Origin: Oegoconia quadripuncta
Taxonomy: Eukaryota; Arthropoda; Insecta; Lepidoptera; Autostichidae
Assembly (NCBI GenBank): GCA_949316235.1
Contig: OX438749.1
Coordinates: forward strand, 7,396,914 to 7,460,913
Direction: 5' to 3'
DNA: 64,000 nt
Part shown: piece after piece, positions 5,046-27,822 of the stretch
Numbering within the stretch: the first letter of the stretch is position 1
Layout of the letters: every line of letters begins with the position of its first letter
Translations under genes and position numbers: made by a program
The notes under the pieces: generated by a model
What the model saw: only the letters and a program-made list of their open reading frames with translations
Told to the model about the DNA's origin: nothing
The model's database searches: none

Positions 5046-6590
5046 TTAATACCCGTTTGTTGTCTTGCAGCTGTTGCTCTAAAGCAACATTTAAGTGTTC
5101 ACTTATAATCGACGAAACTTCTCTCTTTTTTAATGCTATACGATAATAGCCTGTCCCAGATGTATATGTACCTATATGGAAAGAATCTTAAGTAATTTAA
5201 CCCAAAAAAAACCTCACTGTATTTTTAAAGGTAAGAAAAACTGCATTCGTGGTATATTAAAAATCGTCACATTATATACCTGTGTTATAATCTTCCGGTA
5301 TAGTCGCGAAATGAAGTACAATTATCACAACTACAATTTGATGGTACCAATTATTTACCCCCCATGAAAAGGATGTTAGCCGTCAAATAATTTGTGGATC
5401 AATTTCAGTTCTTTTGATGAAAATGTAATCGAAATGTCGAAGATATTTAACTTTTAACACAGTTGCTTTATATATCTGGAAAATTTTCAATTTATGTCAT
5501 AATTTCATGTTCAGAATTATCGATAAAGATGGAAAAGTAAAGATTACGGCCGATGCGCCGTCTTAAATTATCGCCCATATCCCGTGGTTACAGATTTCAT
5601 GAGTTCTAGCAATCTTCTATCAGGTGTACAGCTTGTTTATCATATCATAATATATCACAAAACAACCTCTCTGATTTCCATTGCATATTTTAGTTTAAAA
5701 ATTACGTATCACGTTATTAAAAGCATGCAGTCGCGAGCATGCCAGCAACTATTTACCAAAGAATGCCCCAGGCACCGCATGCCTGTAATTTCTACTAACC
5801 GCCACCTCACCATTCTTTATTTTCTTTTCTATATTATTAATATCAACATTAGAATAAAGCTGGTGCATCGTGATGCTACAGGACCTGTTGCCCGCGGGAT
5901 AGATATGTCCCGCAACCGCTAATGCCTAGGGTTAAACATCTGCCTGTAATTTCTATGTACCGCTGTAATGTTACTAAACTTTTGATTATCTAAACAGAAT
6001 ACTGTATTAGGTGACAGAACTAGTTAGCTCCAGCAAATTCTCGTCCTTTAAATAAGAAAATAAGAAGTAGGAGTAGTGGCGCAGTGGCATAGCGTAGGAG
6101 TGTTTCCTTGCTTCCTTGTGCACGTTAAATAGTCGATCCCGCTTGTATTCAATGATGATAGTTCTTAAGCGAAGTCGGTAGACTACAGGGGCGGTTTAAA
6201 GCAATAACTGTATGTCCAGTAGTGGACTTGTAGTAATGAAAATAGTATAGTGTGTAACATATAAAAACGTTAAGACAATGAACGGTAAATATCAAGAGAA
6301 TCAACCACGTCTTCATATCGTAATTGTCCACAGTGCAACGTTTATTTTTATTTGAAATTTACACTGAATAAACTTGTTTACGTTTTAATTTAGTAATATA
6401 ATGCTGGAAGCCGATTTAAAATTAGCAACGCTTAATAAAGTTTGTTATCGTATGTACAGCTTTACTTAGTGGAACAAGTATAAGGATCCAATGACACATG
6501 TACATGAATGTTCTTGATTAAGGAAATTTTGAAGATATGACATCAGAAATCATACTGACTACAGCGAATATGCTGTGTGGTTTTTGACAC
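5046..6590. other. Flank without recognised gene
   Basis: Several short open frames (for example 5584-5922) have no domain or codon pattern that supports a gene. The region is AT-rich. Confidence 0.4.
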
Positions 6591-8500: not shown

Positions 8501-8756
8501 TTTTTTTTATGCACAACGGTTTGGTACTTGACCTCTATCACACTGATGTTAAGTGAAGATGAGATCGAAGGTGGAAGCGTACTAATCCGGAAACCCCAAT
8601 ACATTTGGGGGACTGGCTATCTTATCTCTGACAACCGAAACACAACAATGCTATTAACATTGCTGCTTGGCGGCAGATTATGTACCCCGCTGGGGATCGA
8701 ACCCGCGACCTCCGAATCATAAACCCAATGTTGTTTACATTGAGCTACGGAGGCGG
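8501..8756 (-). mobile_element. SINE family A, copy 2, internally deleted
   Basis: Tail (poly-T, TATGCACAACGG) and tRNA-like head (GGATCGAACCCGCGACCTCC ... CTACGGAGGCGG) are present, but about 70 bp of the body between GGCGGCAGATT and GTACCCCGCTGG is missing. Confidence 0.85.
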
Positions 8757-10406: not shown

Positions 10407-10412
10407 CACCAA
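10407..10412. repeat. Target site duplication, left copy (CACCAA)
   Basis: The six bases CACCAA directly abut the left terminus and are repeated at 25594-25599 directly after the right terminus. Six bases is the standard Polinton integrase duplication. Confidence 0.95.
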
Positions 10413-11149
10413 AGTAGTACGTATTCGAGAGTTCTGGACCAGCCCCGGGCCCTCCCCCTAAAAAAAGGTCACCACGGTGTGTTCCCCCTTTCACGGTCTC
10501 ATTGGCGGCTTTAATTGGGTCGTTATTGACGGATTTGCCAGTTAACTTTGTTTGCTAATTATAATGGCTAGTAAAAAATTGTCCTTATCTAACCTAATAA
10601 TAGGTTCACACATAAATCAAGTGGACGATAACTCCTCGGCTTTTGGCGCTTTTGTGTACCTACAACTGATACAAGTCTGAACTTGTTCATGGTAAGCATA
10701 GCGATTACAGCAGGTGTATGTTTTTAATATGGAAAAAAATTAAATTTATTGTCAGCAATGAAACTGCCTTTCCATTATTCTTTTATTTAGTTTTCTAATT
10801 TATGATCAATTTATATTTATGGCAGTAGTCGACAAAAAACATGCACCTTTTACGGTGAATAGAAACTTCGTAATTTAAGTTATTTCATTATAGTATACCA
10901 TTTTTTCCTAGTAAGATTTGGAAACAGGTGAGACTTTTTTGCTCGTCACGTTGGAATGTGTACGCCTTTAGATGAAATGATAACGATCACCCACTGTCAA
11001 ATTTATTTATGTTAGTTATTCTTTAGATCGCCATCTGCGGCATACGCAGTATTTTTTCTTAATTTTTTAATTCGATTCAATAATAAATATGTAGGGTTAA
11101 TTCTTAATAGCTACTACGTATGTGGTATCACCACTCTACCTGGATAGGG

Positions 11150-11158
11150 TATTTAAAG
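11150..11158 (+). promoter_or_regulatory. TATA-like box of the left TIR gene
   Basis: TATTTAAAG lies about 30 bases upstream of an ACAGT initiator-like sequence (around 11180-11184) and about 110 bases before the ATG at 11263. This spacing fits a normal insect core promoter. The same site occurs inverted at 24663-24671. Confidence 0.55.
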
Positions 11159-11262
11159 CGAGACGGCTTGTACAGCACCACAGTCCAAATTCGATCGCCC
11201 GCCTCGCCTCGAGACACAGTCGTACATTTCATAGTGAAAAGTGTTAAACTACGCTTTCTGTC

Positions 11263-11839
11263 ATGTCGGTAAGTTTTTGTCTGTAACTACATTGTTTATG
11301 TGTTGTCTACTTTACCTGGACGATCTGTTTCGATGCAATTGCTTGACCTAACCTTCGTTTTCTGCTCGTTTCAGACGTCGATTCCTGACAGTGATTACAC
11401 CTTTAAGAACTATTACTTTCCTACTGCCGATCTAAGCGACGATGATGAAACTCAAGATCCTCCTGCCTTGAAGGTCAAGCAAAACATTGCTAAGAGAAAC
11501 ATTGATTGTTTCTTTGAGAAGCCCAAGAAAAAGAGGGTCCGACTACAGTCTTCCAATATTGCCCAAGCTAACGGAGAAGGAACTTCATACATTTCATCGA
11601 ATAATGATGACGGATCCTCAGCGAGTCATCTCATTAAAATAGAAGTGTATGAGATGAAAAAGTTGAAAGATGTTCAACCAATTGATTACTGGAAATATGC
11701 AGATGTTCGTGTTAAATATTACGCCTCAGAAGACGACAAGCATTACCGAAATGTAAGAGATTTAATTTACAATATAACAAAACAGGTGGCAACGAAGACC
11801 GACTGCACAAAGTACTACATAACAGCGGATAAGAAATAA
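11263..11839 (+). CDS. TIR-encoded spliced protein with PKKKRV nuclear signal, left copy
   Basis: I do not recognise the family. The best model is exon 1 at 11263-11268 (only ATG TCG), a 106-base intron at 11269-11374 with consensus GTAAGT and a pyrimidine-rich TTTCAG acceptor, and exon 2 at 11375-11839, giving 156 aa. The phase-0 splice is supported by the TATA box and initiator upstream of this ATG. An alternative start at 11300 lies inside the intron and would add a hydrophobic, uncharacteristic N terminus. Residues 21-31 are acidic (DLSDDDETQD), and 52-57 read PKKKRV, the classical monopartite nuclear localisation motif. The C-terminal half is charged, with several Tyr residues and no Cys cluster. 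An AATAAA lies at 11948-11953. Its place in both TIRs suggests a role at the element ends (replication, transcription or integration), which is inference. Confidence 0.78.
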
Positions 11840-11983
11840 TTCCTGGAATAGCCCGTTTCTTGCGACTCCCAATAGAGCAACGTTATAATTTATGGGTTTC
11901 TTCTTAGCACATTAACTGTCGCGACGCAGACTCTACTGAAAAACAGCAATAAATTTTTCGTTCCCCACCGTTTTATACCTGTC

Positions 11984-11990
11984 TATAAGA
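11984..11990 (+). promoter_or_regulatory. Candidate TATA box for the TIR-spanning leader (left)
   Basis: TATAAGA is followed by a second TATAAG-like site at about 12000, upstream of the ATG at 12050. It lies inside the TIR, so an identical promoter (23837-23831) faces inward from the right end. Confidence 0.4.
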
Positions 11991-12049
11991 TACACCTCAT
12001 ATAAGCCACATGCCACCGAGAGATACATTTGTCTAACGCAGGCAGAAGG

Positions 12050-15000
12050 ATGGCACACTTCGAAACTCAATACGATGACCAACTGGTACGACTGTGTCTC
12101 GAAGCCGAACAAGACGAAATCGACCGACAACTCTATGAACTCTACGATGATGTCGCAAACCAAGGACCAACAAAATCGTAAGTTTTTTTTTCCCTTGTTT
12201 TTATTGTTATGATTCTATACCCGAACGAGTAACTTGTATGAACATGTACCAAACTAATGTAGAGGGGGCGAGTATGGGTCGGTATATAAACGAGTTGTTC
12301 TGTGGTATTGGTATCACTAACAATTAATTCGTAGTTTTGAATTTAGAACAATGTTGTCTTTGTCGACTGATGAAATACTATCATTAAATAAATTACTTAT
12401 AATAAGTAAATTTCATCGTTGTATTAGAATGTGGTATATTAGTCACAAACTGCCTAATGCCATGTTGGAGGACTTAGAGATTATGCCCTATTATACACCT
12501 TGTCGTGGTCATTCAAAAAAAAATTATGTGACTACTGGAGAGACCGATGAAATTGATGGTGTTATGCTAATGCAAGCATATTGCAAGCTGTGCAATGTGA
12601 GTATTATAATCGAGTTCTCGATTGTAATATTAATTTTGAATGTTTACTTTAACCTATACTTATTAACCTATGCACCTCTTTACAGATCGAGTTCTCAAGT
12701 TGGCGGGAAAAGAAAATCGGAATCATGTGAAGGAACTGCTTCGAAGACTCGTCGAACACTAGAATGTCAAGATTATCAAGAACCATCAACATCAAGAATA
12801 GTGCCCCCAACTGTGAGTTACTTAGATAAACTAATAGTAGAATGTACCATATGTAAAGTGTCAGTCAGCAAGCGATATTTTTCTAGCCATTTAAAGAGTA
12901 ATTTACATAAAAATAATTTAATTACTGTTCACGATAACTTAGCAAATGTTCAGGTTATTGAGAGTGCATTTGGACAAAGGGTAAAAACTTACCGAATAAC
13001 TTCAGACTCCAATATATTACATTTAGAAGTCGAAACGCCTGAATCATTTCTATTAGGAATAAAATCCACTTTATTACAACTGATGAGCAAATGCATTAGT
13101 GATTTAACCCTCATCAAGGTAAATTTTATTTTACATGCCGATTTTGTGCAACAAACAAAAGATTTACACAATTCTTTTGACTTTCAAACTTTTAATTATA
13201 GCTATTGCGTGGGGGATGATCCTGATAGCATAATTTCATTAATTTTTAAAGAAATTTCTGAAAAAGTTAGTAATTTTGAAAAGAAAGACAGCGGTTGGAG
13301 TTTGGAGAAAATCATATATCTTGATATGAATGTTAATAAATTTAACCCTTTACGCGGTTCCTCCTATATAGACTTGCCTCTTGATATAAAACACAAAAAA
13401 GCCATCGTAAATGTTAAAAATAATGACCAACAATGTTTTCAATGGGCTGTACTTTCCGCACTATATCCAGCTGCTCAACATTCTGACAGAGTAACGTCAT
13501 ATTTAAGTCATAAAAACAAATTAAATTTCACAAACATTCCTTTCCCGATGAAACTTAAAGATATTCATAAATTTGAACAGCTAAATAATATCAGCTTAAA
13601 CGTTTTCGGTTTAGAATATGTTGCTAAAGAGAAAAAAAACCAAATCATTGGGCCTTTATACTTCACGAAACATCGAAAAGAAACTCACATTAATTTATTA
13701 TATTTGAAAAATGGTGCTAGTAACTGTGGCCATTACTGCTACATAAAGAATTTATCTAGATTAGTTAGTAATCAAATCACTGCGAGACACGGCGCTGTTT
13801 ATATCTGTGACGGCTGTTTGCTGTATTTTCCAACACAGGAACAGTTAAACAATCACTATCAGTTCGATTGTAATCATATAAAAACTGATTTACCAAATGA
13901 CAAGCCGAGGAAAACCATATGGTGTGGAGAACCGCTACCTAATAACAGATTAGCCTTCAACAATTATGAGAAAAAATTAAAAATTCCGTTTGTAGTGTAC
14001 GCAGATTTCGAATCATTTTTAAAGCCCATACAAACATGTAAAAACGACCCATCTAAATCCTTCACAGCCAATATACAAAAACACGAAGTGTATAGTTTCG
14101 GCTATTATATTAAATGTTCATACAATGATCAACTTTCTGTTTATAGAAAGTATACGGGTGAAGATTGTGCCCAGGTTTTTATGAAATTTCTTAAAAATGA
14201 TTTAATTAACATCTGTCGAAAAAACTCCTTTCAGATATGTCCAGTGCCATTGACCACCGAAAATAATCGGGATGTGTTACAAAGTAGGGTATGTTTTATT
14301 TGTGAAAGTGAATTGAAAAATGATTCCACGGTATATTGTGATTGGTATACTGGCTTGTACAAAGGAGTTGCTCACTCGATGTGTGCTTCTAATTATAGAG
14401 CTCCCCGGTTTGTTCCTGTCTTTTTGCACAACTTAAATAATTATGATGCACATTTCATTGTTCACGCGCTGAATTTTGATGAGGGAGATATTGAAATAAT
14501 TCCCCAAAACAAGGAAAAGTATATATCATTTTCAAAAAAAATTAATGTTTTAAATAATACTATGACCTTGAGATTTTTAGATTCTTTTAAATTCATGTCG
14601 TGTAGTTTGGAAAAGTTAGCACAAAATCTTAAAACCGACAAATTTCATGAACTCCATAAAAATTTTCCGGATCAAGAAGATTTTAAGCGTTTGACTAGGA
14701 AAGGCATTTTCCCTTATGAATATATGACTTCATTTAATATATTAAAACAAGATTATCTTCCAGCCCAAGATAAATTTTATAACTCGCTGGTAAATGAGCA
14801 TGTTTCACTGGAAAGTTATAAACACGCAGAAGACGTATGGAATCATTTTAATTGTAAAAATATGTCTGATTACTCAGATTTATATTTAAAAACCGACGTC
14901 TTATTACTAACTGACATATTTGAGAATTTCAGAAGTTTATGTTTATCTACTTATGATTTAGACCCTGCTCATTATTTTACTGCGCCCGGTCTGAGTTGGG

Positions 15001-16406
15001 ATGCCATGTTGAAGTATACAAAAGTAAACCTAGAACTTCTGACCGATTTTGCCAAAATTGCGTTCATAAAAAAAGGTATTAGAGGCGGTATTTCTCAATG
15101 TAGCAATAGACACGCGAAAGCTAATAATATGTTCATGGAAGACTACAATAATGAATTACCTTCATCCTATTTGATCTACCTAGATGCAAATAACCTGTAC
15201 GGTTGGGCTATGTCACAATATCTCCCCATCGGTGAGTTTGAATGGGTTGATGTAAATACTAATTTCAACGTTTCAGATGATTCAGAATATGGATTCGTGT
15301 TAGAAGTTGATTTACAATATCCTGATAATTTACACGATTCTCATTCCGATCTACCTTTCTGTCCGGATAATTTATGCTCTGAAAATAGCAAAGAAAAAAA
15401 ATTAATACTAAATTTAAACAATAAAACTAAATACATCATCCATTATAGGAATCTAAAACAATGTTTAAAATATGATTTACAATTAACGAAAGTACACCGA
15501 GTACTTAAATTTAAACAAAGTATATGGCTGAAAAAATACATCGATTTAAACACAAATATGCGTACTTTAGCGGTCTCAGACTTTGAAAAGGATTTTTATA
15601 AACTAATGAATAACTCTGTCTTTGGAAAAACTATGGAAAATATCGAAAAACGGGTTAATGTAAAACTACTCACACATTGGGAGAATCGAGGTAAAGTTGA
15701 AGGTGCTCAATCATTAATATCGAGGCCTGAATTTCACAGTCTTTCAATTTTCTCAGAATCGTTGGTAGCTATACAATTAAGAAAAACTAAATTGCTGTAT
15801 AACAAGCCTATATATTTAGGTTTTTGCATATTAGATATTTCGAAAACATTAATGTATGACTTTCACTATGACTATATGAAAATTAAATTTCAAAAGAATT
15901 TAAAACTACTTTATACTGATACCGATAGTCTTATCTATCAGATATATAGTAAAAATATATATTATGACATAAAGCCCGATTTATTGACTTACTTTGATAC
16001 ATCTGATTATCCCATGGATAATAAGTATGGGTTACCGCTAGTTAATAGGAAGAAACTAGGTCTCTTTAAAGATGAAAATAATGGAAAAATATTTAGAGAG
16101 TTTGTTGGATTGAGATCAAAAATGTATGCGATTGATGTAGACCACAAATTTACAGCAAAAGCAAAAGGTGTCAATAAAAATGTGACAAAGAATTTTAATA
16201 TGGAGCAATATAAAAGTTGCTTATTCCAAAAAAAGATTCACATTTCTGAGATGTTGCGATTCAAATCTATTAAACATGTAATTTATACCCAAAAAATTAA
16301 TAAGATTTCTTTATCGCATAATGACACCAAAAGGCATTTACTGGAAAATTGTACTGATACTCTAGCTTGGGGACACTATAAATTAAGAAAAAGTGAACAC
16401 TTTTAA
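12050..16406 (+). CDS. Protein-primed DNA polymerase B (pPolB) with TIR-borne leader exon
   Basis: Replicative DNA polymerase of the element, using a protein primer at the TIR ends. Main open frame 12351-16406 (1,351 aa). Numbered from its Met, the 3'-5' exonuclease motifs are YADFES (D552, E554), HNLNNYD (H693-D699) and YLKTDVLLL (Y845, D849). Polymerase motif A is DANNLYG from D945, motif B KLMNNSVFGKT from K1084, motif C YTDTDS (D1190, D1192), and KMY is at 1257-1259. All catalytic residues are present. Residues about 360-480 hold QCFQWAV and GHYCYIKN, resembling a cysteine-protease/OTU-like fold, followed by a CDGC...H zinc-binding pattern. The preferred model adds exon 1 at 12050-12177: donor GTAAGT at 12178, acceptor TTTAG ending 12346, in frame, giving 1,395 aa. 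Alternatively it starts at 12351 from the TATA box at 12283. A further cryptic intron may lie at 12597-12698. Confidence 0.95.
12283..12290 (+). promoter_or_regulatory. TATA box for an alternative pPolB start
   Basis: TATATAAA sits in the putative leader intron, about 60 bases before the ATG at 12351 and about 30 before a TATCACT initiator-like sequence. It would allow a leaderless polymerase transcript from unique sequence, independent of the TIR promoter. Confidence 0.5.
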
Positions 16407-16777
16407 GTTATTTTTTACGTCAGGAACATTTTTTAGTTTTATATAAAAAAGTTATTATTCACACGTCGTAGCCTTATATAATTAATTAACCTATTGTGTC
16501 AAATTTTTATTACATGCGTATGTAGCGTGTAGCACTATTTTTGCAATTTGTTTCGCTTCATTGTATGAAAATAGTTTTGTAGTCGTAGTATAACGTATAT
16601 AGTATTTTGTGGGGGTCCTAGAACTCAGGTTGTTGAGCAACTAATGTGTATAGAAAATCTAAAAATGTATAAGTAAATTAAACATAGTTAATTATTATTT
16701 TTGTAATTTTAAAATGAAAGATAATACTAATTGAGATGTTAAATTGATTTTATTGTTTTTTTTTTTTTACTTTGATA

Positions 16778-16857
16778 ATATGCTGATATATGAGGGAGAG
16801 GAGGCCTTTGTCCAGCAGTGGGACATTGGGAGCTTATAATAATAATATATGCTGATA
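16778..16857 (+). mobile_element. 58-bp RTE-type 3' end nested in the Polinton, with 11-bp TSD
   Basis: ATATGCTGATA occurs at 16778-16788 and again at 16847-16857. Between them lies a short piece (GAGGCCTTTGTCCAGCAGTG and neighbours, then a TAATAATAAT tail) that matches the 3' end of the RTE-like LINE seen elsewhere in the window (for example 4905-5045 and 34055-34150). This is a severely 5'-truncated LINE insertion made after this Polinton lineage formed. Confidence 0.75.
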
Positions 16858-17050
16858 AAATCAAAGTAAAAATTAAATGAAATTTCTGTGTATATGTGGG
16901 AAGTATATGAATATATTTATCGACACTCATATAATAATAATACTGTATGATGACTAATTTTAAAAGATGTGTTGTTGTGGAGTTTCTTAGGTCGCTTCTT
17001 CTCCATAGCCATAACACCTTTTTGAAGCGATATAGTAAAAAATTTAAAGT

Positions 17051-17058
17051 TTATAATA
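17051..17058 (+). promoter_or_regulatory. Candidate TATA box upstream of the ATPase
   Basis: TTATAATA lies 69 bases before the ATPase ATG, with a T-rich stretch between. Support is by position and sequence only. Confidence 0.3.
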
Positions 17059-17126
17059 AGTGTTTTATTGTTTTTATTCCATTCCCCCATTCTACAGCCT
17101 GCAAGTAACACGCTCAATAATGAAAA

Positions 17127-17789
17127 ATGATTCATTTCATACACCCCTTCACAGCTATAGTAGCAGGTCCTAGTGGGTGTGGTAAATCAAACTTTGTCAC
17201 TAATTTTCTTAAATTTATGAAAGAAATATGTAACACTAATTTTTCACGAGTAGTATGGTGTTACGATGAAATGCAACCTTTATATAATTTGAACAACGTC
17301 GACTACAGTCAAGGTATACCGGATTTAAACATGTTTGATGGGAAGCAACCACAATTACTTATAATAGATGATCTTATGAGAGAATCCGATGGTCGTATAG
17401 TGGACATTTTTACTAAAGGTAGTCATCATAGAAACCTTAGCGTGTTTTATATAACACAAAATTTATTTCATCAAGGCAGAGGACAACGTGACATTTCTTT
17501 AAATTCAAGTTACATAGTATATTTTAAAAATCCCCGGGATAGAACACAAATACGCCATTTAGCGCGCCAAGTGTTCCCAGATAACTCTAAGTTCGTAGAA
17601 GAAGCTTATAAAGATGCTACGTCAGAAGCACATGGCTATCTAATGATTGATTTAAAGCAAAATACAGACGATATGTGTCGTTTTAAGACTAAGATATTTC
17701 CCCTCAATAGCAATTGTGTAGTTTATGTATCGAAAAAGGGTTATAAATATAATACGTATCGTGATAAAATTACAGTTAACAGTAGATAA
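17127..17789 (+). CDS. A32/FtsK-HerA-type genome-packaging ATPase
   Basis: DNA-packaging motor that would translocate element DNA into a capsid. The protein is 220 aa. Walker A is GPSGCGKS at residues 14-21, and Walker B is LLIIDD, ending at D81-D82. FYITQN at 107-112 is the Gln-containing strand usual in this family, and FKNPRDRTQIR further on holds candidate arginine-finger residues. Length and HPF(T) start fit Polinton ATPases. The start is fixed by an in-frame stop just upstream. Its stop overlaps the next ATG by one base (TAATG). No transmembrane segment. Confidence 0.93.
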   Translation: MIHFIHPFTAIVAGPSGCGKSNFVTNFLKFMKEICNTNFSRVVWCYDEMQPLYNLNNVDYSQGIPDLNMFDGKQPQLLIIDDLMRESDGRIVDIFTKGSHHRNLSVFYITQNLFHQGRGQRDISLNSSYIVYFKNPRDRTQIRHLARQVFPDNSKFVEEAYKDATSEAHGYLMIDLKQNTDDMCRFKTKIFPLNSNCVVYVSKKGYKYNTYRDKITVNSR

Positions 17790-18007
17790 TGTCTGAAGAA
17801 GCAGTGACACGAGATCGAGAGTTAGTTTTACAAGTACTAACACCTAAATATCGCAAAGCTCTATTAAAAGAATGTACTGATGACAAAATAAATCGTATCT
17901 GTGAAAGTATTTTAGATACTTTGGATGAAATCCCCATAAAGGAAGTCCGGGAATCAAAATTTAGCTTCTTAAATCTACATTGTTTCTTTTCAACAAACAT
18001 TGCTTAG
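17789..18007 (+). CDS. Short paralogue of the next gene, C-terminally lost (72 aa)
   Basis: The TPKYRKALLKEC segment followed by Ile/Cys/Asp-rich helices aligns clearly with KPKYCTALLKVC in the next gene: LL..L.PKY..ALLK.C.D..IN..CE.I...L...IP. The basic linker and hydrophobic tail of that neighbour are absent; the end (after about residue 58) is unrelated and low in charge. It starts on the last base of the ATPase stop codon. It is either a degenerating duplicate or a shortened specialised form. The helical domain may mediate oligomerisation, which is inference. Confidence 0.65.
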   Translation: MSEEAVTRDRELVLQVLTPKYRKALLKECTDDKINRICESILDTLDEIPIKEVRESKFSFLNLHCFFSTNIA

Positions 18008-18058
18008 TATTTGCTTCTAATATTAACAACATTGTAAAAATATTATCAGTCGTTTACA

Positions 18059-18388
18059 ATGGTTGGTAGAGTGACGACGCATCTAGACTTATTAAAAGCA
18101 TTACATACACTCAAACCTAAGTATTGTACAGCTTTATTGAAGGTTTGTAAGGATGAAGAAATAAATTGTTTATGTGAATGCATTTATAATATTTTAAATG
18201 GTAAAATTCCTCTGAAGAATCAAGATAAATCCAAGTTGAATAAATACAAAACTATATTGAGAAAATTGGTGTCTAAAGGTAAAAGTAACTCTCGAAAACG
18301 AATTATTATACAGAAAGGTGGAGCATTCCTACCCATTATTTTAGGTTCCGTTCTCAGTGGATTACTAAGTTCGTTTCTAAATAAGTAA
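18059..18388 (+). CDS. Small basic core-like protein with GG-FLP hydrophobic tail (109 aa)
   Basis: N-terminal helical domain (residues about 8-50), Lys/Arg-rich middle (56-82, including KSNSRKR), then QKGGAFLPIILGSVLSGLL and a short end. The order of basic DNA-binding part, Gly-Gly, and hydrophobic amphipathic tail resembles adenovirus precursor core protein X/mu, and such proteins are recurrent in Polintons and adintoviruses. Q-K-G-G|A fits the adenain-type cleavage pattern, so the protease encoded downstream could mature it. Likely role: DNA condensation in the virion or membrane interaction. It starts 51 bases after the truncated paralogue. Confidence 0.72.
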   Translation: MVGRVTTHLDLLKALHTLKPKYCTALLKVCKDEEINCLCECIYNILNGKIPLKNQDKSKLNKYKTILRKLVSKGKSNSRKRIIIQKGGAFLPIILGSVLSGLLSSFLNK

Positions 18389-18396
18389 AAATTACA

Positions 18397-19164
18397 ATGG
18401 AACATACAAAGAAAATGATACTTGTGGAACCCCACATCCTAGAAAGGATTAGAGACAGTAACCATGTTCATGAAAAGCCCTTATCCCGTCTTGATGAGGA
18501 AATGAGTAAAATCTTACACAGTAAAATTGATGATCGTGAGAAGTGGACACAGTACTCGCAAATTTTACAAAGATATTTACATTTTGCTAATAAAGAACGT
18601 CATCCCATTAAATTACCAATAGTTACAGATGACTCTATGTATGATGTTTTTAAGACTATTAAAAAGGAAGAAAGTGATGTTAAAACAATAGTTCCAGAAT
18701 TGCCAAGAATAGAGGAAGACGTAGCAGCGGAAAAACATATCTCATCACGTTACACTCCAAATTATTTATTTAAGTATATACCAAAAACATATAAAAAGAA
18801 GGGCGAGTTGTTATTGGAAGGTATATTGGATCATGAAAATATTATTAAATGGGATACCAATGGTCATGTTGTAATCAATGACGAAGTTATTGATAACAGT
18901 AATATTGTGGATTTAGTGAACGATGCCCTAAGACCATTACGACGCCCAAAACCATTAGGCTGGGAGAAGTTTGCTTCAGCTTTAAGGGATATAAAAATAC
19001 CGTTATCTTGTATAGGTAACCCAGAAACGCTTGAATATATTAATAATATTCATTCATCTGATTTAGAGAAAGACGATCCAGCTCAAATTAAAACGCCAAA
19101 GCAAAAACCTGGTGGCTTGTTTCACAAAAGAAAACTTGACTGGGAGAAATGGACTCCCATATAG
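18397..19164 (+). CDS. Conserved Polinton protein of unknown function (255 aa)
   Basis: I recognise the architecture as a common Polinton/adintovirus protein without assigned function. The N-terminal helical part has LDEEMSKIL (about 32-40) and KWTQYSQILQRYLHF (about 50-64). An acidic linker with VPELPRIEED follows. A C-terminal domain has YIPKTYKKKGELLLEGIL, then W-D-x-N-G, SNIVDLVNDALR, GWEKFASALRDI and IPLSCIGNPE. The very end is basic (KQKPGGLFHKRKLDW). KPGG|L may be a protease site. It begins 8 bases after the preceding gene and overlaps the integrase by 16 bases. Possible virion core or assembly factor, not established. Confidence 0.8.
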   Translation: MEHTKKMILVEPHILERIRDSNHVHEKPLSRLDEEMSKILHSKIDDREKWTQYSQILQRYLHFANKERHPIKLPIVTDDSMYDVFKTIKKEESDVKTIVPELPRIEEDVAAEKHISSRYTPNYLFKYIPKTYKKKGELLLEGILDHENIIKWDTNGHVVINDEVIDNSNIVDLVNDALRPLRRPKPLGWEKFASALRDIKIPLSCIGNPETLEYINNIHSSDLEKDDPAQIKTPKQKPGGLFHKRKLDWEKWTPI

Positions 19165-20231
19165 ATAATATAAATAAAATTTATTATGATGTCTCTCATC
19201 CAGCTGGATACAGTAGCATTGAAAAATTGACGAAAGCTATGCAAGGGAAAATGAATGAAAAGGATGTAAAGAAGTGGTTACAATCCCAAGAAACTTATAC
19301 TTTACATAAACCTGTCAATAGGCGATTTCCTAGAAATAAATATATTTTATCTAATTTTAATGAACTCTGGCAAGCAGATTTAAGTGACATGCGAACATAC
19401 AATCAATATAATGATGGATTTAATTATATTCTCTGTGTTATTGATGTGTTTAGTAAGTATGCATTTGCGAGACCTATGAAAAAGAAAAATTCTAAAACTG
19501 TAAAGATATGTTTTGAAAGCATATTTATTGAAGCGAAAGCTACTCCTAGACATATACAATCTGATAAAGGTACAGAATTTGTTTCAAGAGATGTAAACCA
19601 GTACTTCAAAAAGAAAAATATTAATTACTATACAACTAACAATCCGGACATAAAGGCCAGTATTGTGGAAAGATTTCAAAGAACCCTAAAAATGAAAATG
19701 TGGCGATATTTCACACATAATAATACGTATAGGTATGTTGATATTTTACAAGATTTATTATATTCTTATAATCACAGTGTCCATTCAAGTATAAAAATGT
19801 GTCCAAGTGATGTGAATTCCAGTAATATAATGACAGTATGGTCTAATTTATATGATAGGTACAACTTAAACACTTCAGACCGATTACCATTTAAAGTAGG
19901 TGATTATGTTAGAATAACGAAATATAAACACATTTTCCAGAAAGGTTATGAAACAAATTGGTCCGATGAAATATTTGTAATAGAATCCATTGTAAAAAGA
20001 CTTCCTTGGTTGGTTTACAAATTAAAAGATCTACAAAATGAATCAATAATTGGTACATTTTATGGAAGGGAATTACAAAAAGTAATCTATGACCCCACTA
20101 TTACCTACAAAATAGATAAAATAATACGCACTCGCTATTCTGGCAACAGAAAGGAAGTGCTAGTCAAATGGAAAGGATATCCTAATAAATTTAATAGTTG
20201 GATATCCGCATTAAACTTAGAAACAATATGA
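19149..20231 (+). CDS. Retroviral-type DDE integrase with C-terminal chromodomain (360 aa)
   Basis: Inserts the linear element and makes the 6-bp target duplication. Residues 17-60 hold the Polinton signature HPAGYSS and the TLHKPVNRRF helix region. The RNase-H-fold core has D77 (ELWQADL), D139 (IQSDKGTEF) and E174 (SIVERFQRTLK), with the canonical D-35-E spacing. VGDYVRI at about 250-256 is the SH3-like C-terminal domain. Residues about 320-355 (YKIDKII...VLVKWKGY...NSWI) form a chromodomain with its aromatic residues, expected to bind methylated histone tails and steer insertion. All catalytic residues are present. ATG is the upstream-most Met and overlaps the previous gene by 16 bases. Confidence 0.95.
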   Translation: MDSHIDNINKIYYDVSHPAGYSSIEKLTKAMQGKMNEKDVKKWLQSQETYTLHKPVNRRFPRNKYILSNFNELWQADLSDMRTYNQYNDGFNYILCVIDVFSKYAFARPMKKKNSKTVKICFESIFIEAKATPRHIQSDKGTEFVSRDVNQYFKKKNINYYTTNNPDIKASIVERFQRTLKMKMWRYFTHNNTYRYVDILQDLLYSYNHSVHSSIKMCPSDVNSSNIMTVWSNLYDRYNLNTSDRLPFKVGDYVRITKYKHIFQKGYETNWSDEIFVIESIVKRLPWLVYKLKDLQNESIIGTFYGRELQKVIYDPTITYKIDKIIRTRYSGNRKEVLVKWKGYPNKFNSWISALNLETI

Positions 20232-21007
20232 CGGAAGATAGTTTTTATCTTACTTTGCCAAGCAATAGTTCAACTGCATATTTCCCCCAAAATACAACCG
20301 CCAACTTTGTAACAAAGTTACCTAAAACTGTTCAATTGGAAGGAGAATGGGTTGTAGGATTAGCTGAATTTCATTATCCCTGTGCTATATTTAACGTCCA
20401 AGAAAATGAGAATATTCTTTTCGTCAAGAAGAAAGTAATAGTCGAAGGAGATGACGAATCATTAATATCAGTGGAATATAAATCCCAAATTCCTTCATTT
20501 CCTTATGATAACATCAACAATTTTCTAAAAGTATTTAATGAAAATAGCCTCCTACAAAATCAAGTGGCATTCCAAATTGATAACGACTCGAAACTTATCA
20601 CTGTTACGAACTTAACTCGCAGTGTATCATCGTTGATTTTGTCACCTACATTAAATCTTCAACTCGGTTTCGAGCCATATACAAATTTAATTGCGGATCC
20701 ATACGCTAAATACCCAGCGAACTTACAATTAGGATTACCATCACAGCTATTTATTTACTCTGATATTATTCATCCTCAAATAGTTGGAGATGTAATGACC
20801 TCATTATTTAGAATCATACCGCTAGATCCATCAAAATACAACTATGGTGCTTATAAAATGCACGTATTATCTCCAATTCATTATCTTCCAGTAATGCGCA
20901 GAGAATTTGACATAATCGAAATAGATATAAGAACAAGCATTGGTAATAGAGTTCCATTCCAGTTTGGAACTGCATGTGTTAAACTACATTTTAAACGAAT
21001 AAAATGA
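20228..21007 (+). CDS. Penton-like minor capsid protein (single jelly roll, 259 aa)
   Basis: Vertex protein of the predicted icosahedral particle. The beginning, FYLTLPSNSS..YFPQNTTANF, followed by LPKTVQLEGEWVVGLAEFHYP, is the signature of the Polinton penton homologue. Many short beta strands follow, with RREFDIIEIDIRTSIGNRVPF close to the C terminus, another hallmark of the family. I chose ATG 20228 because it overlaps the integrase stop as ATGA, as at the next junction; a start at 20198 would overlap the chromodomain. The 3' end again overlaps the next start by four bases. Confidence 0.9.
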   Translation: MTEDSFYLTLPSNSSTAYFPQNTTANFVTKLPKTVQLEGEWVVGLAEFHYPCAIFNVQENENILFVKKKVIVEGDDESLISVEYKSQIPSFPYDNINNFLKVFNENSLLQNQVAFQIDNDSKLITVTNLTRSVSSLILSPTLNLQLGFEPYTNLIADPYAKYPANLQLGLPSQLFIYSDIIHPQIVGDVMTSLFRIIPLDPSKYNYGAYKMHVLSPIHYLPVMRREFDIIEIDIRTSIGNRVPFQFGTACVKLHFKRIK

Positions 21008-21453
21008 ATTATAAGCGTGATAATATCGTTTGTCCTTATCATCATTATTATTCTAATCAAGCTGGATCAGGTGTAGGTATCATATACAGAGGTGTACCGC
21101 ATCAACGTGGTCACGGCATTGGAAGTTTTTTGGGCGGACTATTTAGATCTGTATTTCCACTCATAGCAAGTGGTGCCAAGACAGTCGGGAAAGAGGCATT
21201 AAGCGCAGGAGTAGGTTTATTATCAGATATGGTCAGGGCACAACCAATGGGGGAATCAATTAAGTCTCGACTCAAAGAAGCAAGTGCTAATTTAAAACGA
21301 AAAGCGGATAACAAAATTGATTCGCTTATGTCTGGCTCAGGGTATAAAATCAAGAGACTTCGAAAGAAACCTACCATTTCATTGAAACCATCTAAGCGAA
21401 GAGGAGTTGACAGGAAGAAAAAAAGTAATATAAAAGATATATTTTCAAATTAA
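21004..21453 (+). CDS. Basic glycine-rich core-like protein with adenain-type sites (149 aa)
   Basis: A small protein rich in Gly, Lys and Arg (predicted strongly basic), with HQRGHGIGSFLGGLFR at about 35-50, an amphipathic stretch at 50-75 (VFPLIASGAKTVGKEAL), helices to about 105, and a very basic end (KRRGVDRKKK). L-M-S-G-S|G at about 108-113 fits the adenain consensus (M/I/L)-X-G-X|G. This organisation (membrane-active amphipathic part, cleavage site, basic tail) recalls adenovirus protein VI/VII-type virion proteins. Its position between penton and major capsid genes supports a virion role. Homology is inferred, not proven. Confidence 0.75.
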   Translation: MNYKRDNIVCPYHHYYSNQAGSGVGIIYRGVPHQRGHGIGSFLGGLFRSVFPLIASGAKTVGKEALSAGVGLLSDMVRAQPMGESIKSRLKEASANLKRKADNKIDSLMSGSGYKIKRLRKKPTISLKPSKRRGVDRKKKSNIKDIFSN

Positions 21454-21455
21454 CT

Positions 21456-22769
21456 ATGTCGTTTCTTCATAATAATTCTTGTGAGTGTGTTAAATCAGAG
21501 TTAGATCTTTTTGCTATACCATCAACACAGACAAGTATTGAGAGTGGGCAATGGATTCATTGTACACCGATATCATCGCTAAGTGATGAAGGACCAATTG
21601 AATTTGTTATGCCAGGAAGTGGAGATGACTACATTGATTTGTCACACACCCTCCTTCATGTTAAAGCTAAAATTATAAACCTAGATTCTACCACTCCTCC
21701 CCCTGATGAGAAGACAGCACCTGTTAATAATTGGTTGCATTCACTTTTCAACCAATTAGATGTTTATCTAAATCAAAAACTTGTATCACCTCCTAATAAC
21801 ACATATGCTTATCGGGCTTATATTGAGACTCTACTTAATTATGGACCAGCGGCAAAACAATCACACTTGACTTGTGGTATGTGGTACGAAGATACAGCTT
21901 CAAAGATGGATTCATGTGATGACAACAACAAGGGCTTTCACAAAAGACATCAACGGGTAAAAGACGGCAAATCAGTTGAAATGATTGGACATTTGCACGG
22001 TGATCTATTTAATCAAGAAAAGTTCTTAATAAATGGGGTAGAAATACGTGTTAAATTAGTACGTAACAAAGACACTTTTAATTTAATGTCATCATCAGTG
22101 AATTCAAAATATAAAGTTCAAATTGATAGCGCTACTCTTATATTGCGAAAGGCAAGAATAAATCCATCCGTTTTACTCGCTCATCAAAAAGTTTTAACCA
22201 CTACAACTGCAAAATATCCAATTACTCGCGCTGAAGTTAAAGTTTTAACTATTCCATCAGGAGTCCGTGGAAAAACAATTGACAATGTATTTCTTGGTCA
22301 GGTGCCGAAAAGATGTATTATCGGATTTGTTGATAATGTTGCTTTTAATGGTACTTTCAATACCAATCCATTTAACTTCGATAATCATGATATAAATGTA
22401 TTTAGCTTGTATGTAGATGGGCAACAAATTCCTTCTAAAACCCTAATGCCATCATACCGTAGCGGTGTGTTTACGAGTAGTTACCATACGTTATATACTG
22501 GAACAGGTATTCACTTTTTGAATGAAGGCAATTCCATATCGATTGAGGACTATGCAAATGGATACTGCTTAATGGCATTTGATTTAACTCCTGATCTATC
22601 TGCTAACTCAAGTTCCCACTGGAATTTGATAAAACATGGGTGTGTTAGAATAGAAGTCCAATTTGAATCAGCTCTTGCAAAAACTCTTAACTGCATTGTG
22701 TACGCAGAGTTTGACAATGTTATAGAAATTAATAAAAATAGAGATGTGAGTGTAGATTATAATAGTTAA
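21456..22769 (+). CDS. Major capsid protein, double jelly roll (437 aa)
   Basis: Hexon-like main shell protein. The start, CVKSELDLFAIPSTQTSIES, followed by PIEFVMPGSGDDYIDLSHTLL, is the characteristic Polinton MCP opening. NNWLHSLFNQLDVYLNQKLV and YAYRAYIETLLNYG mark the first barrel, and HGDLFNQEKFLINGVEI and IRVKL with RNKDTF the middle. The second barrel ends with NGYCLMAFDLTPD and RIEVQFESALAKTLNCIVYAEFDNVIEI. Length is typical. It begins two bases after the previous stop, so the capsid genes form one tight block. No signal peptide or membrane segment. Confidence 0.96.
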   Translation: MSFLHNNSCECVKSELDLFAIPSTQTSIESGQWIHCTPISSLSDEGPIEFVMPGSGDDYIDLSHTLLHVKAKIINLDSTTPPPDEKTAPVNNWLHSLFNQLDVYLNQKLVSPPNNTYAYRAYIETLLNYGPAAKQSHLTCGMWYEDTASKMDSCDDNNKGFHKRHQRVKDGKSVEMIGHLHGDLFNQEKFLINGVEIRVKLVRNKDTFNLMSSSVNSKYKVQIDSATLILRKARINPSVLLAHQKVLTTTTAKYPITRAEVKVLTIPSGVRGKTIDNVFLGQVPKRCIIGFVDNVAFNGTFNTNPFNFDNHDINVFSLYVDGQQIPSKTLMPSYRSGVFTSSYHTLYTGTGIHFLNEGNSISIEDYANGYCLMAFDLTPDLSANSSSHWNLIKHGCVRIEVQFESALAKTLNCIVYAEFDNVIEINKNRDVSVDYNS

Positions 22770-22797
22770 GTATTCAGCATTTTTGTATCTATTATAG

Positions 22798-22805
22798 TAT
22801 ATAAG
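22798..22805 (+). promoter_or_regulatory. Candidate TATA box for the protease
   Basis: TATATAAG lies in the 109-base spacer between capsid and protease genes, about 75 bases upstream of the protease ATG. It suggests separate transcription of the protease. Confidence 0.45.
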
Positions 22806-22878
22806 ATTTCCATATAATATTTTTCATCATTATCCGTTAAACTACCTTAATGTATGTATTTAAGAAAGTATTTCAATA

Positions 22879-23316
22879 ATGGATACACACGAAATTAGAC
22901 TATTTATGAAAAAGATAAATCACAGTCTAGAATTTAACGTGTTCCCTGCTAACAGAATACCAATGTACATAGAAGCACCCACTTACTTTATTTCTAACTT
23001 GGATCCTGATACAAAATCGGGATCACATTGGGTAGCCATTCATATCAATGCTAATGGTATCGGTGAATATTTTGATTCATATGGTAGAAAGCCTACCGGC
23101 CACCATAAATCGTTTTTGAAAAGAAATACTCGGAAATGGTTTTACAATAATAAAATTCTTCAAAGTCACTTAACTTCTGTTTGTGGTGAATACTGTTTAG
23201 TGTATCTGTACTTTAAGTTTATGAATATGAGCATGTCAGAGTTTTTAAGAGATTTTTGCGATATTCCTTTGTATAACGATATATTCATAAATAAAATATT
23301 TAAAACCATTTTTTGA
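22879..23316 (+). CDS. Adenain-like (C5-type) maturation cysteine protease (145 aa)
   Basis: Predicted to process virion proteins during particle maturation. Catalytic residues in family order: H50 in KSGSHWVAIHI, D66 in EYFDSYG, the oxyanion-hole Gln Q95 in KILQSHLTS and C102 in SVCGEYC. The length is short, as usual for Polinton proteases, which lack the longer adenovirus C-terminal part. Candidate substrates are the two basic proteins at 18059-18388 and 21004-21453. An AATAAA starts right after the stop (23317-23322). Confidence 0.93.
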   Translation: MDTHEIRLFMKKINHSLEFNVFPANRIPMYIEAPTYFISNLDPDTKSGSHWVAIHINANGIGEYFDSYGRKPTGHHKSFLKRNTRKWFYNNKILQSHLTSVCGEYCLVYLYFKFMNMSMSEFLRDFCDIPLYNDIFINKIFKTIF

Positions 23317-23322
23317 AATAAA
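23317..23322 (+). terminator. Poly(A) signal after the protease
   Basis: AATAAA immediately follows the protease stop codon, closing the rightward gene block. Faces the leftward poly(A) signals at 23414-23423. Confidence 0.6.
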
Positions 23323-23413
23323 TTTATTTTACCAATTATCTGTTTTTTATTTACATTATCCTATTTTGATATAGAAGAGTGAAGATAATGAAACATCAGA
23401 ATTACAGTTTTAC

Positions 23414-23423
23414 TTTATTTATT
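23414..23423 (-). terminator. Poly(A) signals of the 103-aa right-end gene
   Basis: Two overlapping AATAAA motifs on the minus strand about 40 bases after the stop at 23460. With 23317-23322 this makes a convergent bidirectional 3' end region. Confidence 0.55.
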
Positions 23424-23459
23424 TTCTAATTAAACATTATAATACAATATTGTAGCTAA

Positions 23460-23771
23460 CTAATCTATCTGCGGGGTTGGACTATAGACACCCGGTGATA
23501 ATGAAAACAATTTTTCAGACGCCCACGACGTTTCATAAACTTCTTCTTCCTGTTCCAATGACATGAGTGGGTTCGCTGGCCGCTGCAGAAATGTTAGTAT
23601 AGGGGGAGGTGAGGGTCTTGAATACCCACCATAATCGTAATTGGCCCACTGGCGGAGATTATTTAGGTTTTCTTCATGGAATTCATAGAGTTGTCGGTCG
23701 ATTTCGTCTTGTTCGGCTTCGAGACACAGTCGTACCAGTTGGTCATCGTATTGAGTTTCGAAGTGTGCCAT
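23460..23771 (-). CDS. Acidic right-end protein sharing its N terminus with pPolB (103 aa)
   Basis: I do not recognise the C-terminal part. The ATG is at 23771; the 7-residue extension that some frames allow begins at a TTG and is not used here. Residues 1-30 (MAHFETQYDDQLVRLCLEAE onward) are encoded within the TIR and are identical to the leader predicted for the polymerase. From residue 31 on, the sequence is unique: EENLNNLRQW, then a Gly/Tyr/Pro-rich stretch (YDYGGYSRPSPPP), then an acidic segment (MSLEQEEEVYE). No intron is needed. The leader looks like an acidic amphipathic helix with LVRLCLEAE. Possible roles are a regulator or an interaction partner docking through the shared helix; both are speculation. 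Confidence 0.72.
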   Translation of the reverse strand: MAHFETQYDDQLVRLCLEAEQDEIDRQLYEFHEENLNNLRQWANYDYGGYSRPSPPPILTFLQRPANPLMSLEQEEEVYETSWASEKLFSLSPGVYSPTPQID

Positions 23772-23830
23772 CCTTCTGCCTGCGTTAGACAAATGTATCT
23801 CTCGGTGGCATGTGGCTTATATGAGGTGTA

Positions 23831-23837
23831 TCTTATA
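23831..23837 (-). promoter_or_regulatory. Candidate TATA box for the TIR-spanning leader (right)
   Basis: Inverted copy of the site at 11984-11990, upstream of the ATG at 23771-23769 of the 103-aa gene. Confidence 0.4.
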
Positions 23838-23981
23838 GACAGGTATAAAACGGTGGGGAACGAAAAATTTATTGCTGTTTTTCAGTAGAGTCTGCGTCGC
23901 GACAGTTAATGTGCTAAGAAGAAACCCATAAATTATAACGTTGCTCTATTGGGAGTCGCAAGAAACGGGCTATTCCAGGAA

Positions 23982-24558
23982 TTATTTCTTATCCGCTGTT
24001 ATGTAGTACTTTGTGCAGTCGGTCTTCGTTGCCACCTGTTTTGTTATATTGTAAATTAAATCTCTTACATTTCGGTAATGCTTGTCGTCTTCTGAGGCGT
24101 AATATTTAACACGAACATCTGCATATTTCCAGTAATCAATTGGTTGAACATCTTTCAACTTTTTCATCTCATACACTTCTATTTTAATGAGATGACTCGC
24201 TGAGGATCCGTCATCATTATTCGATGAAATGTATGAAGTTCCTTCTCCGTTAGCTTGGGCAATATTGGAAGACTGTAGTCGGACCCTCTTTTTCTTGGGC
24301 TTCTCAAAGAAACAATCAATGTTTCTCTTAGCAATGTTTTGCTTGACCTTCAAGGCAGGAGGATCTTGAGTTTCATCATCGTCGCTTAGATCGGCAGTAG
24401 GAAAGTAATAGTTCTTAAAGGTGTAATCACTGTCAGGAATCGACGTCTGAAACGAGCAGAAAACGAAGGTTAGGTCAAGCAATTGCATCGAAACAGATCG
24501 TCCAGGTAAAGTAGACAACACATAAACAATGTAGTTACAGACAAAAACTTACCGACAT
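23982..24558 (-). CDS. TIR-encoded spliced protein with PKKKRV nuclear signal, right copy
   Basis: Inverted second copy of the gene at 11263-11839. Exon 1 is 24558-24553, the intron 24552-24447 and exon 2 24446-23982. The exon 2 translation is identical to the left copy, so both produce the same 156-aa product. Its own TATA-like box (24671-24663) and poly(A) signal (23873-23868) lie inside the repeat, so each copy is a self-contained transcription unit. This doubles gene dosage and means the gene is copied whenever either end is copied. Function unknown. Confidence 0.77.
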
Positions 24559-25050
24559 GACAGAAAGCGTAGTTTAACACTTTTCACTATGAAATGTACG
24601 ACTGTGTCTCGAGGCGAGGCGGGCGATCGAATTTGGACTGTGGTGCTGTACAAGCCGTCTCGCTTTAAATACCCTATCCAGGTAGAGTGGTGATACCACA
24701 TACGTAGTAGCTATTAAGAATTAACCCTACATATTTATTATTGAATCGAATTAAAAAATTAAGAAAAAATACTGCGTATGCCGCAGATGGCGATCTAAAG
24801 AATAACTAACATAAATAAATTTGACAGTGGGTGATCGTTATCATTTCATCTAAAGGCGTACACATTCCAACGTGACGAGCAAAAAAGTCTCACCTGTTTC
24901 CAAATCTTACTAGGAAAAAATGGTATACTATAATGAAATAACTTAAATTACGAAGTTTCTATTCACCGTAAAAGGTGCATGTTTTTTGTCGACTACTGCC
25001 ATAAATATAAATTGATCATAAATTAGAAAACTAAATAAAAGAATAATGGA

Positions 25051-25420
25051 AAGGCAGTTTCATTGCTGACAATAAATTTAATTTTTTTCCATATTAAAAA
25101 CATACACCTGCTGTAATCGCTATGCTTACCATGAACAAGTTCAGACTTGTATCAGTTGTAGGTACACAAAAGCGCCAAAAGCCGAGGAGTTATCGTCCAC
25201 TTGATTTATGTGTGAACCTATTATTAGGTTAGATAAAGGCAGTTTCATTGCTGACAATAAATTTAATTTTTTTCCATATTAAAAACATACACCTGCTGTA
25301 ATCGCTATGCTTACCATGAACAAGTTCAGACTTGTATCAGTTGTAGGTACACAAAAGCGCCAAAAGCCGAGGAGTTATCGTCCACTTGATTTATGTGTGA
25401 ACCTATTATTAGGTTAGATA
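25051..25420. repeat. 185-bp tandem duplication within the right TIR
   Basis: The segment 25051-25235 is followed immediately by a second copy at 25236-25420, starting again with AAGGCAGTTT; no difference between the two was seen. The left TIR has only one copy (10586-10770). The duplication therefore arose after the arms were last made equal, or has not yet been spread by copying or gene conversion. Confidence 0.93.
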
Positions 25421-25593
25421 AGGACAATTTTTTACTAGCCATTATAATTAGCAAACAAAGTTAACTGGCAAATCCGTCAATAACGACCCAATTAAAGCCG
25501 CCAATGAGACCGTGAAAGGGGGAACACACCGTGGTGACCTTTTTTTAGGGGGAGGGCCCGGGGCTGGTCCAGAACTCTCGAATACGTACTACT

Positions 25594-25599
25594 CACCAA
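25594..25599. repeat. Target site duplication, right copy (CACCAA)
   Basis: Identical to 10407-10412 and adjacent to the terminal ACTACT of the element. Confidence 0.95.
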
Positions 25600-26140: not shown

Positions 26141-26374
26141 ATTATGCACAACGGATTAGCACTTGACCTCAATCACCTCTGATGTAAAGTGAAGATAAGG
26201 CTGAAGGTGGGAGCGTACTGACCCGGAAACCCCATTTTATTTAGGGGACTGCCTATCTTATCTCTGACAACCGGAACACAACAATGCTATCAACATTTCT
26301 GTTTGGCGACAGACTTCGATAAAACGGTGGTAGCTAGCCAGGCGGAGATTTAAAATTGCTCTACCACCAACCAA
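26141..26374 (-). mobile_element. SINE family A, copy 3, head missing
   Basis: Tail TTATGCACAACGGATTAGCA and body up to CTACCACCAACC are present; the tRNA-like head is lacking. Point changes are numerous. Confidence 0.82.
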
Positions 26375-27517: not shown

Positions 27518-27822
27518 TTTTTTTTTATGCACAACTGGTTAGTACTTGACCTCAACCACACCTTATGTTAAGTAAAGATGAGGCCGAAGGTGGAAGCGTA
27601 CTGACCTGGAAACCCAAATATATGGGGAACTGGCTATGTTATCTCTGACAACCGGAACATAACAATGCTATTAACATTGCTGTTTGGCGGCAGATTTAGA
27701 TAAGATGGTGGTAGCTAACTAAAACCAATCAAACCGAGTACTAAACATGTACCCTGCTGGGGATAGACCCGCGACGTCCGATTCATAAACCCTATGTTGT
27801 TTACATTGAGCCACGGAGGCGG
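27518..27822 (-). mobile_element. SINE family A, copy 4
   Basis: Near full length, from poly-T and TATGCACAACTGGTT to GAGCCACGGAGGCGG. The box B region is changed (GGGATAGACCCGCGACGTCC). Confidence 0.87.

Follow-up and report, generated by a model that had tools for sequence, protein, structure and literature searches.

Inverted-repeat borders are known to cut genes, as in the border genes of the terminal inverted repeats (TIRs) of poxviruses and in ycf1 and rps19 at the inverted repeat (IR) borders of chloroplast genomes, while terminal transposition, or end-copying, occurs in linear viral genomes with TIRs (poxviruses, adenoviruses). Here we describe a gene fusion at a moving inverted-repeat border, an event of this known kind, in a Polinton lying in a stretch of 64,000 nucleotides (nt) from the lepidopteran Oegoconia quadripuncta (GCA_949316235.1, contig OX438749.1, 7,396,914-7,460,913, forward strand; hereafter the window). 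The Polinton family of the window is called family A, and two others in the same genome are called families B and C. Comparison of the element's two ends supports the view that the family A TIR places the same upstream sequence and N-terminal peptide before two different genes, the DNA polymerase gene on the left and a small gene at the right end. As in the poxvirus and chloroplast border genes, the repeat ends inside a gene, and two genes share a start and then differ, whereas here it is a leader exon together with a promoter that is shared, and both continuations look coding.

Like other insect Polinton/Maverick elements, the element has TIRs, a 6-bp target site duplication (TSD), relatives among DNA-directed DNA polymerases and an rve integrase with a chromodomain. 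It differs from them in that the first exon of the polymerase is shared with the right-end gene via the TIR, and in having an open reading frame (ORF) nested in the polymerase intron. Neither leader sharing via a TIR nor a nested intron ORF was found in the titles and abstract openings of the open-licence literature searched, and the accessible text of PMC11071308 gave no match to the terms sought. Coordinates are window positions unless a locus prefix (C2, C7, C14, C15, L...) is given, and genome-wide searches covered the 622.6-Mb genome holding the window.

The shared start and the first exon of the polymerase

The features on which the argument depends are as follows.

10413-25593, no strand assigned: complete Polinton of family A (ends and TSD read; integrase with rve and chromo domains; polymerase relatives)
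10413-12139, plus strand: left TIR, 1727 nt
23682-25593, minus strand: right TIR, 1912 nt
12000-12005, plus strand: TATA-like box TATAAG inside the TIR, 50 nt 5' of the leader ATG (consensus match only)
12050-12177, plus strand: polymerase leader exon, 42 codons and 2 nt, reading MAHFETQYDDQLVRLCLEAEQDEIDRQLYE followed by LYDDVANQGPTKS, with codons 1-30 in the TIR
12178-12685, plus strand: predicted polymerase intron 1, donor GTAAGT at 12178, acceptor TTTACAG ending at 12685
12686-16406, plus strand: polymerase exon 2, containing SSQVGGKRKSESC
23460-23771, minus strand: right-end chimeric gene, 103 aa, leader codons 1-30 and a 73-codon tail ending LSPGVYSPTPQID

The two TIRs cease to be identical exactly at 12139 (left) and 23682 (right), within a shared coding start. 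Both ends have the same ATG (12050 on the left, 23771 on the right) and the same 29 codons after it, and the two border genes are identical as far as the repeat extends and diverge beyond it, 7 of the first 11 nt past the limit still agreeing. On the left the frame continues for 13 more codons to a TAA that overlaps the donor GTAAGT at 12178, a hexamer present 36 times on both strands of the window (~0.03 per 100 nt), while on the right the frame (23463-23771, minus strand) encodes a 103-aa acidic protein with a net charge of -13 and a calculated isoelectric point of 4.2. On all these points our analysis agrees with a first-pass annotation of the window, which had described the break inside a coding sequence, the 30 common codons and both continuations. 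A second TATA-like box lies at -66 relative to the leader ATG, again as a consensus match only.

The arrangement is repeated throughout the genome. Searched with a 40-nt pattern covering the right junction, the genome gave 123 places (67 forward, 56 reverse), with no mismatch in the 100 places listed and none found with the reversed pattern as control. Of 268 candidate left ends 40 were scored, among them that of the window, and each of these agrees with 12000-12360 at a rounded 100%, and 18 left ends read over 12000-12760 (L005 being the window's own) have 0 to 2 differences each. The 123 right junctions and 40 matching left ends show that the shared start is not due to chance or to a fault in one copy. 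Family A has spread very recently, and since the copies read or scored are nearly identical, both family A and family B (38 near-identical copies scored) represent recent bursts.

Comparison of the three families supports the leader as an ordinary first exon of the Polinton polymerase gene. The donor GTAAGT, its phase (2) and an in-frame acceptor position are kept in all three, with acceptors at 12685 in family A, L009:1514 in family B and position 5759 of the reversed L043 in family C, and leader sequences MAHFETQYDDQLVRLCLEAEQDEIDRQLYELYDDVANQGPTKS (A), MAHFDLNNPIFDEQLYQLCIEAEQRNIDQQLYDLCELSDAVNQVPPEP (B) and MDLNDSFYDKELYQLCEKVEKEYLKS (C). Between families A and B the leader has a nonsynonymous divergence (dN) of 0.30 and a synonymous divergence (dS) of 1.22, and for families B and C none of 2000 shuffles gave an equally good alignment. 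The likely polymerase acceptor is TTTACAG ending at 12685, its phase fitting the donor and the site agreeing with annotated lepidopteran polymerases.

The polymerase itself has 5607 related proteins among 7983 candidates scored, of which 120 were listed; the closest named relatives among these are lepidopteran, and several are named DNA-directed DNA polymerase. When the first 250 residues of each of the 120 were compared with the three leaders, the seven best matches to any leader were six named lepidopteran polymerases (P0009, P0041, P0037, P0021, P0042 and P0034) and P0039, from an unnamed contig, all seven with an acidic first exon ahead of a Q.G.G.KR-like motif, followed by a weevil protein (P0062, score 44) and by P0017 (43). 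Nine first exons, chosen by eye, were put to a shuffle test; for seven of them no more than 7 of 500 shuffles gave an equally good match, the misses being P0041 (18/500) and P0027 (53/500). A search with a leader profile gave two matches of 289 candidates, both first exons of polymerases, one in a polymerase model from Colias and the other a leader exon standing alone; it found no second leader-bearing end gene in other species, a weak negative because small ORFs may be missing from the database searched. The polymerase genes of these Polintons would thus start in an upstream acidic exon. A reading of the leader as an LxCxE-like motif was dropped because the spacing is wrong.

The right-end protein gave three candidates in a protein search, none of which scored, and no match in Pfam; a search of viral contigs gave no match, and searches with the polymerase against phage records and against solved structures found none. 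A structure predicted from the single sequence (mean predicted local distance difference test score, pLDDT, 66.8) is helical, as far as the leader is concerned, with a helix over residues 5-44 and a pLDDT of ~90 over residues 11-40.

End replacement and the origin of the right-end gene

Three derivatives of family A were found that have two ends of one type, the inverted copy of one end having replaced the other, right onto left in two cases and left onto right in one. At C2:23697040 an inverted right tract (window positions 23712 to 22179) runs into 14468 over a 2-bp overlap, and at C7:2520985 an inverted right tract (23713 to 22795) is joined to 16726 without overlap. The third, C14:20175654-20186108 (L002, L001), has left-type ends on both sides: a left tract up to window position 13597 meets 17866, from where the sequence runs in reverse, the two overlapping by 12 bp at the join; the opposite end corresponds to the left end over 13860 outward to 10500, and the spacing to this other left end fits an unbroken stretch (4008 vs 4006 nt). 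No right junction lies within C14:20175654-20186108 among the 100 listed of 123. As these derivatives include both directions, an inverted copy of either end of the element can take the place of the opposite one, giving a longer TIR and doubled end genes. As in the end-copying of poxviruses and adenoviruses, an end is replaced, the TIR lengthened and end genes doubled, in three cases here, but in integrated Polinton copies of an insect genome. In C2:23697040-23707800 and C7:2520985-2528900, where the left end is replaced, part or all of the polymerase is lost.

The TIR limit also moves between families, which can be described with reference to a gene within the TIR.

11263-11839, plus strand: TIR gene, an ORF with a second copy inside the right TIR
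11263-11268, plus strand: its proposed exon 1, two codons (ATGTCG) followed by GTAAGT (splice read by eye)
11269-11374 and 11375-11839, plus strand: its intron and exon 2, respectively (splice read by eye)

Family B was found with P0035 as query (all 38 rows scored, at 72% to P0035) and family C with P0031 (3 of 37 scored rows), while P0021, P0030, P0034 and P0039, used to seek more families, returned only copies of A or B in 36, 40, 36 and 37 scored rows; three families is a lower bound, because hundreds of candidates stayed unscored. The TIR gene is 81.7% identical over 482 nt between families A and B and is present at both ends in these two, whereas its main exon is whole only at the right in family C. 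The TIR limit lies at leader codon 30 in family A. In family B the TIR extends past the TIR gene and stops ~160 nt short of the leader, and in family C (three copies, with TIR arms 98-99.8% alike) its end lies ~370 nt ahead of the leader ATG, just within exon 2 of the TIR gene. Among the three families the leader is shared by two genes only in family A. The first-pass annotation had asked whether the leader and the break at codon 30 are conserved among relatives: the leader is kept in families B and C and in annotated polymerases, and the break is not kept in B or C.

The right-end gene differs accordingly in its state. In family C it has another start (MYSCCTTCCC...) behind a TATA box read from the sequence, and in family B, judged from the right ends of two copies, only a tail remnant (...ISPGVYSPT...) is left. 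None of 2000 shuffles matched the family A tail as well as this remnant does. Over SPGVYSPT five of eight codons differ between families A and B, all of them synonymously, and the preceding codon differs (L/I). With only synonymous changes over this stretch, the tail was probably coding, selected sequence in the common ancestor. A weak Pfam match of the family C right protein to UL42 (0.041, below cut-off) was disregarded.

We propose, with a probability of about 0.73, that end-copying from left onto right gave the right-end gene the polymerase promoter and leader, the leader being the spliced first exon of the polymerase. Splicing would join the polymerase leader to exon 2 across ~0.5 kb of intron (12178-12685), within which lies a separate small ORF preceded by a TATA-like box of its own. 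The left end would have been copied onto the right by repair or replication template switching between the inverted ends, the polymerase promoter, 5' untranslated region (UTR) and leader codons 1-30 thereby overwriting the start of the right-end gene. By stopping inside the right-end coding region in a compatible frame, this event would have left a chimeric gene behind the polymerase promoter, from which this gene would be expressed. The copying would have lengthened the TIR, and later replication may keep its two copies identical. The direction of this family-wide event was presumably left to right, because in each of the three families the leader belongs to the polymerase. The Polinton would then have been caught building a new gene, TIR extension by end-copying having joined a promoter and coding exon to another gene, and fresh products of such exchange, in either direction, are still present in the genome. 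This would show a route of hybrid-gene formation for large virus-like transposons.

Several points weigh against this proposal. Both the splicing and the expression of the right-end gene are predicted from the sequence. The leaders of families A and C are weakly alike (33 of 2000 shuffles as good), family B being the link between them, and the family A tail is likewise weakly alike to the family C right protein (21/2000), so that the identity of the right-end genes of A and C as one gene is argued from position; the family C start may, again from position, be the ancestral start of this gene. No family with the old start beside an A-like tail was found among the three read. For the C14 derivative the evidence consists of its two ends, read on either side of a middle part of ~3.7 kb. 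Finally, the 7 of 11 nt agreeing past the break (residues LYDDV and FHEEN), together with the predicted helix that crosses it, suggest that the right-end gene may already have had a leader-like start.

This last point would fit an older paralogy, in which the right-end gene had a leader-like start before the present TIR limit and gene conversion re-homogenised the 30 codons, and the residues matching just past the break are indeed conservative. However, the agreement drops from ~12151 on, as judged by eye, and the right-end gene of family C is without the leader (20.8% of shuffles as good against the 30 leader codons), which makes such a history unlikely. A further reading, which we also regard as unlikely, makes the leader a transferable docking helix, with which the acidic first exon of the polymerase would recruit replication machinery of the element or machinery of the host. 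Its capture by the right-end gene would then have provided family A with another protein, independent of the polymerase but alike in partner and in expression timing, aiding the spread to >100 places. Three cases of end replacement were seen in this genome, and such replacement accounts for the arrangement with no need for polymerase and end gene to be tied in function.

The small ORF nested in polymerase intron 1

The predicted intron is not empty, and its content bears on where the polymerase starts.

12351-12596, plus strand: nested small ORF, ~82 aa (MLSLSTDEIL...YCKLCN), conserved in families B and C
12285-12290, plus strand: TATA box of the nested ORF, 66 nt 5' of it (consensus match only)

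An ORF starting with MLSL sits in the polymerase intron of all three families, preceded by TATA-like boxes at -66 (A), -67 (CATAAA, B) and -55 (TATAAA, C), the family B counterpart lying at L009:1183-1434. Between families A and B its dN is 0.21 and its dS 0.73, while the other two frames of the same region have the reverse relation and contain 5 to 14 stops, and between A and C its score of 187 compares with a maximum of 57 among 2000 shuffles. In family B the ORF ends at its own stop, and a 7-nt gap in the A-B alignment covers this stop in family A. Because its stop is missing there, the nested frame runs on into exon 2 in family A, where it coincides with the polymerase frame and gives a 1351-aa ORF (12351-16406); in family C it also passes the intron end, but the polymerase is read in a different frame there. 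Over the first 250 residues of each of the 120 listed relatives, the nested sequence was not seen (best score 48; the A-C score of 187 was obtained with slightly milder gap costs). The nested ORFs have no Pfam match, and a possible CxxH...CxxC pattern was seen in them by eye. A splice 12597/12685 for the nested frame was rejected, as the polymerase comes out of frame. From these comparisons, 12351 appears to open a separate conserved small ORF inside the intron and not the polymerase, and the intron of the polymerase gene would conceal such an ORF in each of the three families read.

This alters the reading in the first-pass annotation, which had placed the polymerase start at 12351 and joined it to the leader by an acceptor at 12346. 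In the window the join 12177/12347 does keep the frame, as claimed, but in the other families it would not: in the last 60 nt before the homologous ATG, none of three AGs in family B and none of four in family C are in frame, and the exon reached is the nested ORF with its own stop in B. Together with that splice goes the view of the TIR as a cassette under selection, supplying promoter, UTR and N-terminal peptide and so tying the expression, and perhaps the partner binding, of polymerase and end gene. It is true that both genes have these parts in common, that the right junction occurs at 123 places, and that the leader is conserved under selection and predicted to be helical. Against this, family B has amplified with its right-end gene reduced to a remnant and family C shares no leader, which leaves unsupported the idea that this class of element works in such a way, and no evidence was found for the functional tie. 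We regard a selected cassette as unsupported and improbable.

An equally poor prospect is a family A polymerase made mainly from the internal TATA box at 12285 as the unspliced 1351-aa frame beginning at 12351, with the left leader a bystander. The continuous ORF, the TATA box at -66 and the rarity of such openness (open frames made up only 11 of the 1980 overlapping 112-codon ones sampled between 27 and 63.6 kb of the window) all speak for it. The open frame is nevertheless explained by the conserved small ORF, whose family B stop falls in the 7-nt alignment gap; a stop separates nested ORF and polymerase in B, their frames differ in C, and the nested sequence is absent from the starts of the listed relatives. 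That the leader originated in the right-end gene and was copied leftward to become the polymerase first exon is very improbable: right-onto-left replacements do occur (two of the three derivatives read), but so does the opposite, the leader exon belongs to the polymerase in families B and C and in several annotated lepidopteran polymerases, and the family C right gene lacks it.

Architecture of the element

The element has long TIRs, a 6-bp TSD (CACCAA, at 10407-10412 and 25594-25599) and a retrovirus-like integrase (19149-20231; Pfam rve 8.1e-13, chromo 5.6e-9), as do Polinton/Maverick elements. Its polymerase belongs with the family B DNA polymerases to judge from its relatives, among which P0081 (45% identity over 90%) carries a precomputed PF03175, although a Pfam scan of the polymerase ORF itself gave no PolB match. 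The two TIRs are identical but for a perfect 185-bp tandem duplication (25050-25419) in the right TIR, present as a single copy in the left, which makes the right TIR the longer one.

Other candidate genes were compared with Pfam. The region 17127-17789 matched no packaging-ATPase model, its best match being PF00910 (RNA helicase; 2.5e-4, 21.9 bits), barely over the cut-off of 21.5. For 22879-23316, where an adenovirus-like cysteine protease was sought, Peptidase_C48 was found at 0.027, below the cut-off, and the jelly-roll capsid candidates 21456-22769 and 20198-21007 had no match in the Pfam scan, which included no fold search.

Elsewhere in the genome, four right junctions of family A lie in mixed orientation within 5.2 kb (C15:10951655-10956813), as nested or rearranged copies. 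Outside the element, the window contains three copies of a 135-nt repeat, at 8543-8677, 26179-26313 and 27560-27694, the latter two at 87% and 62% to the first.

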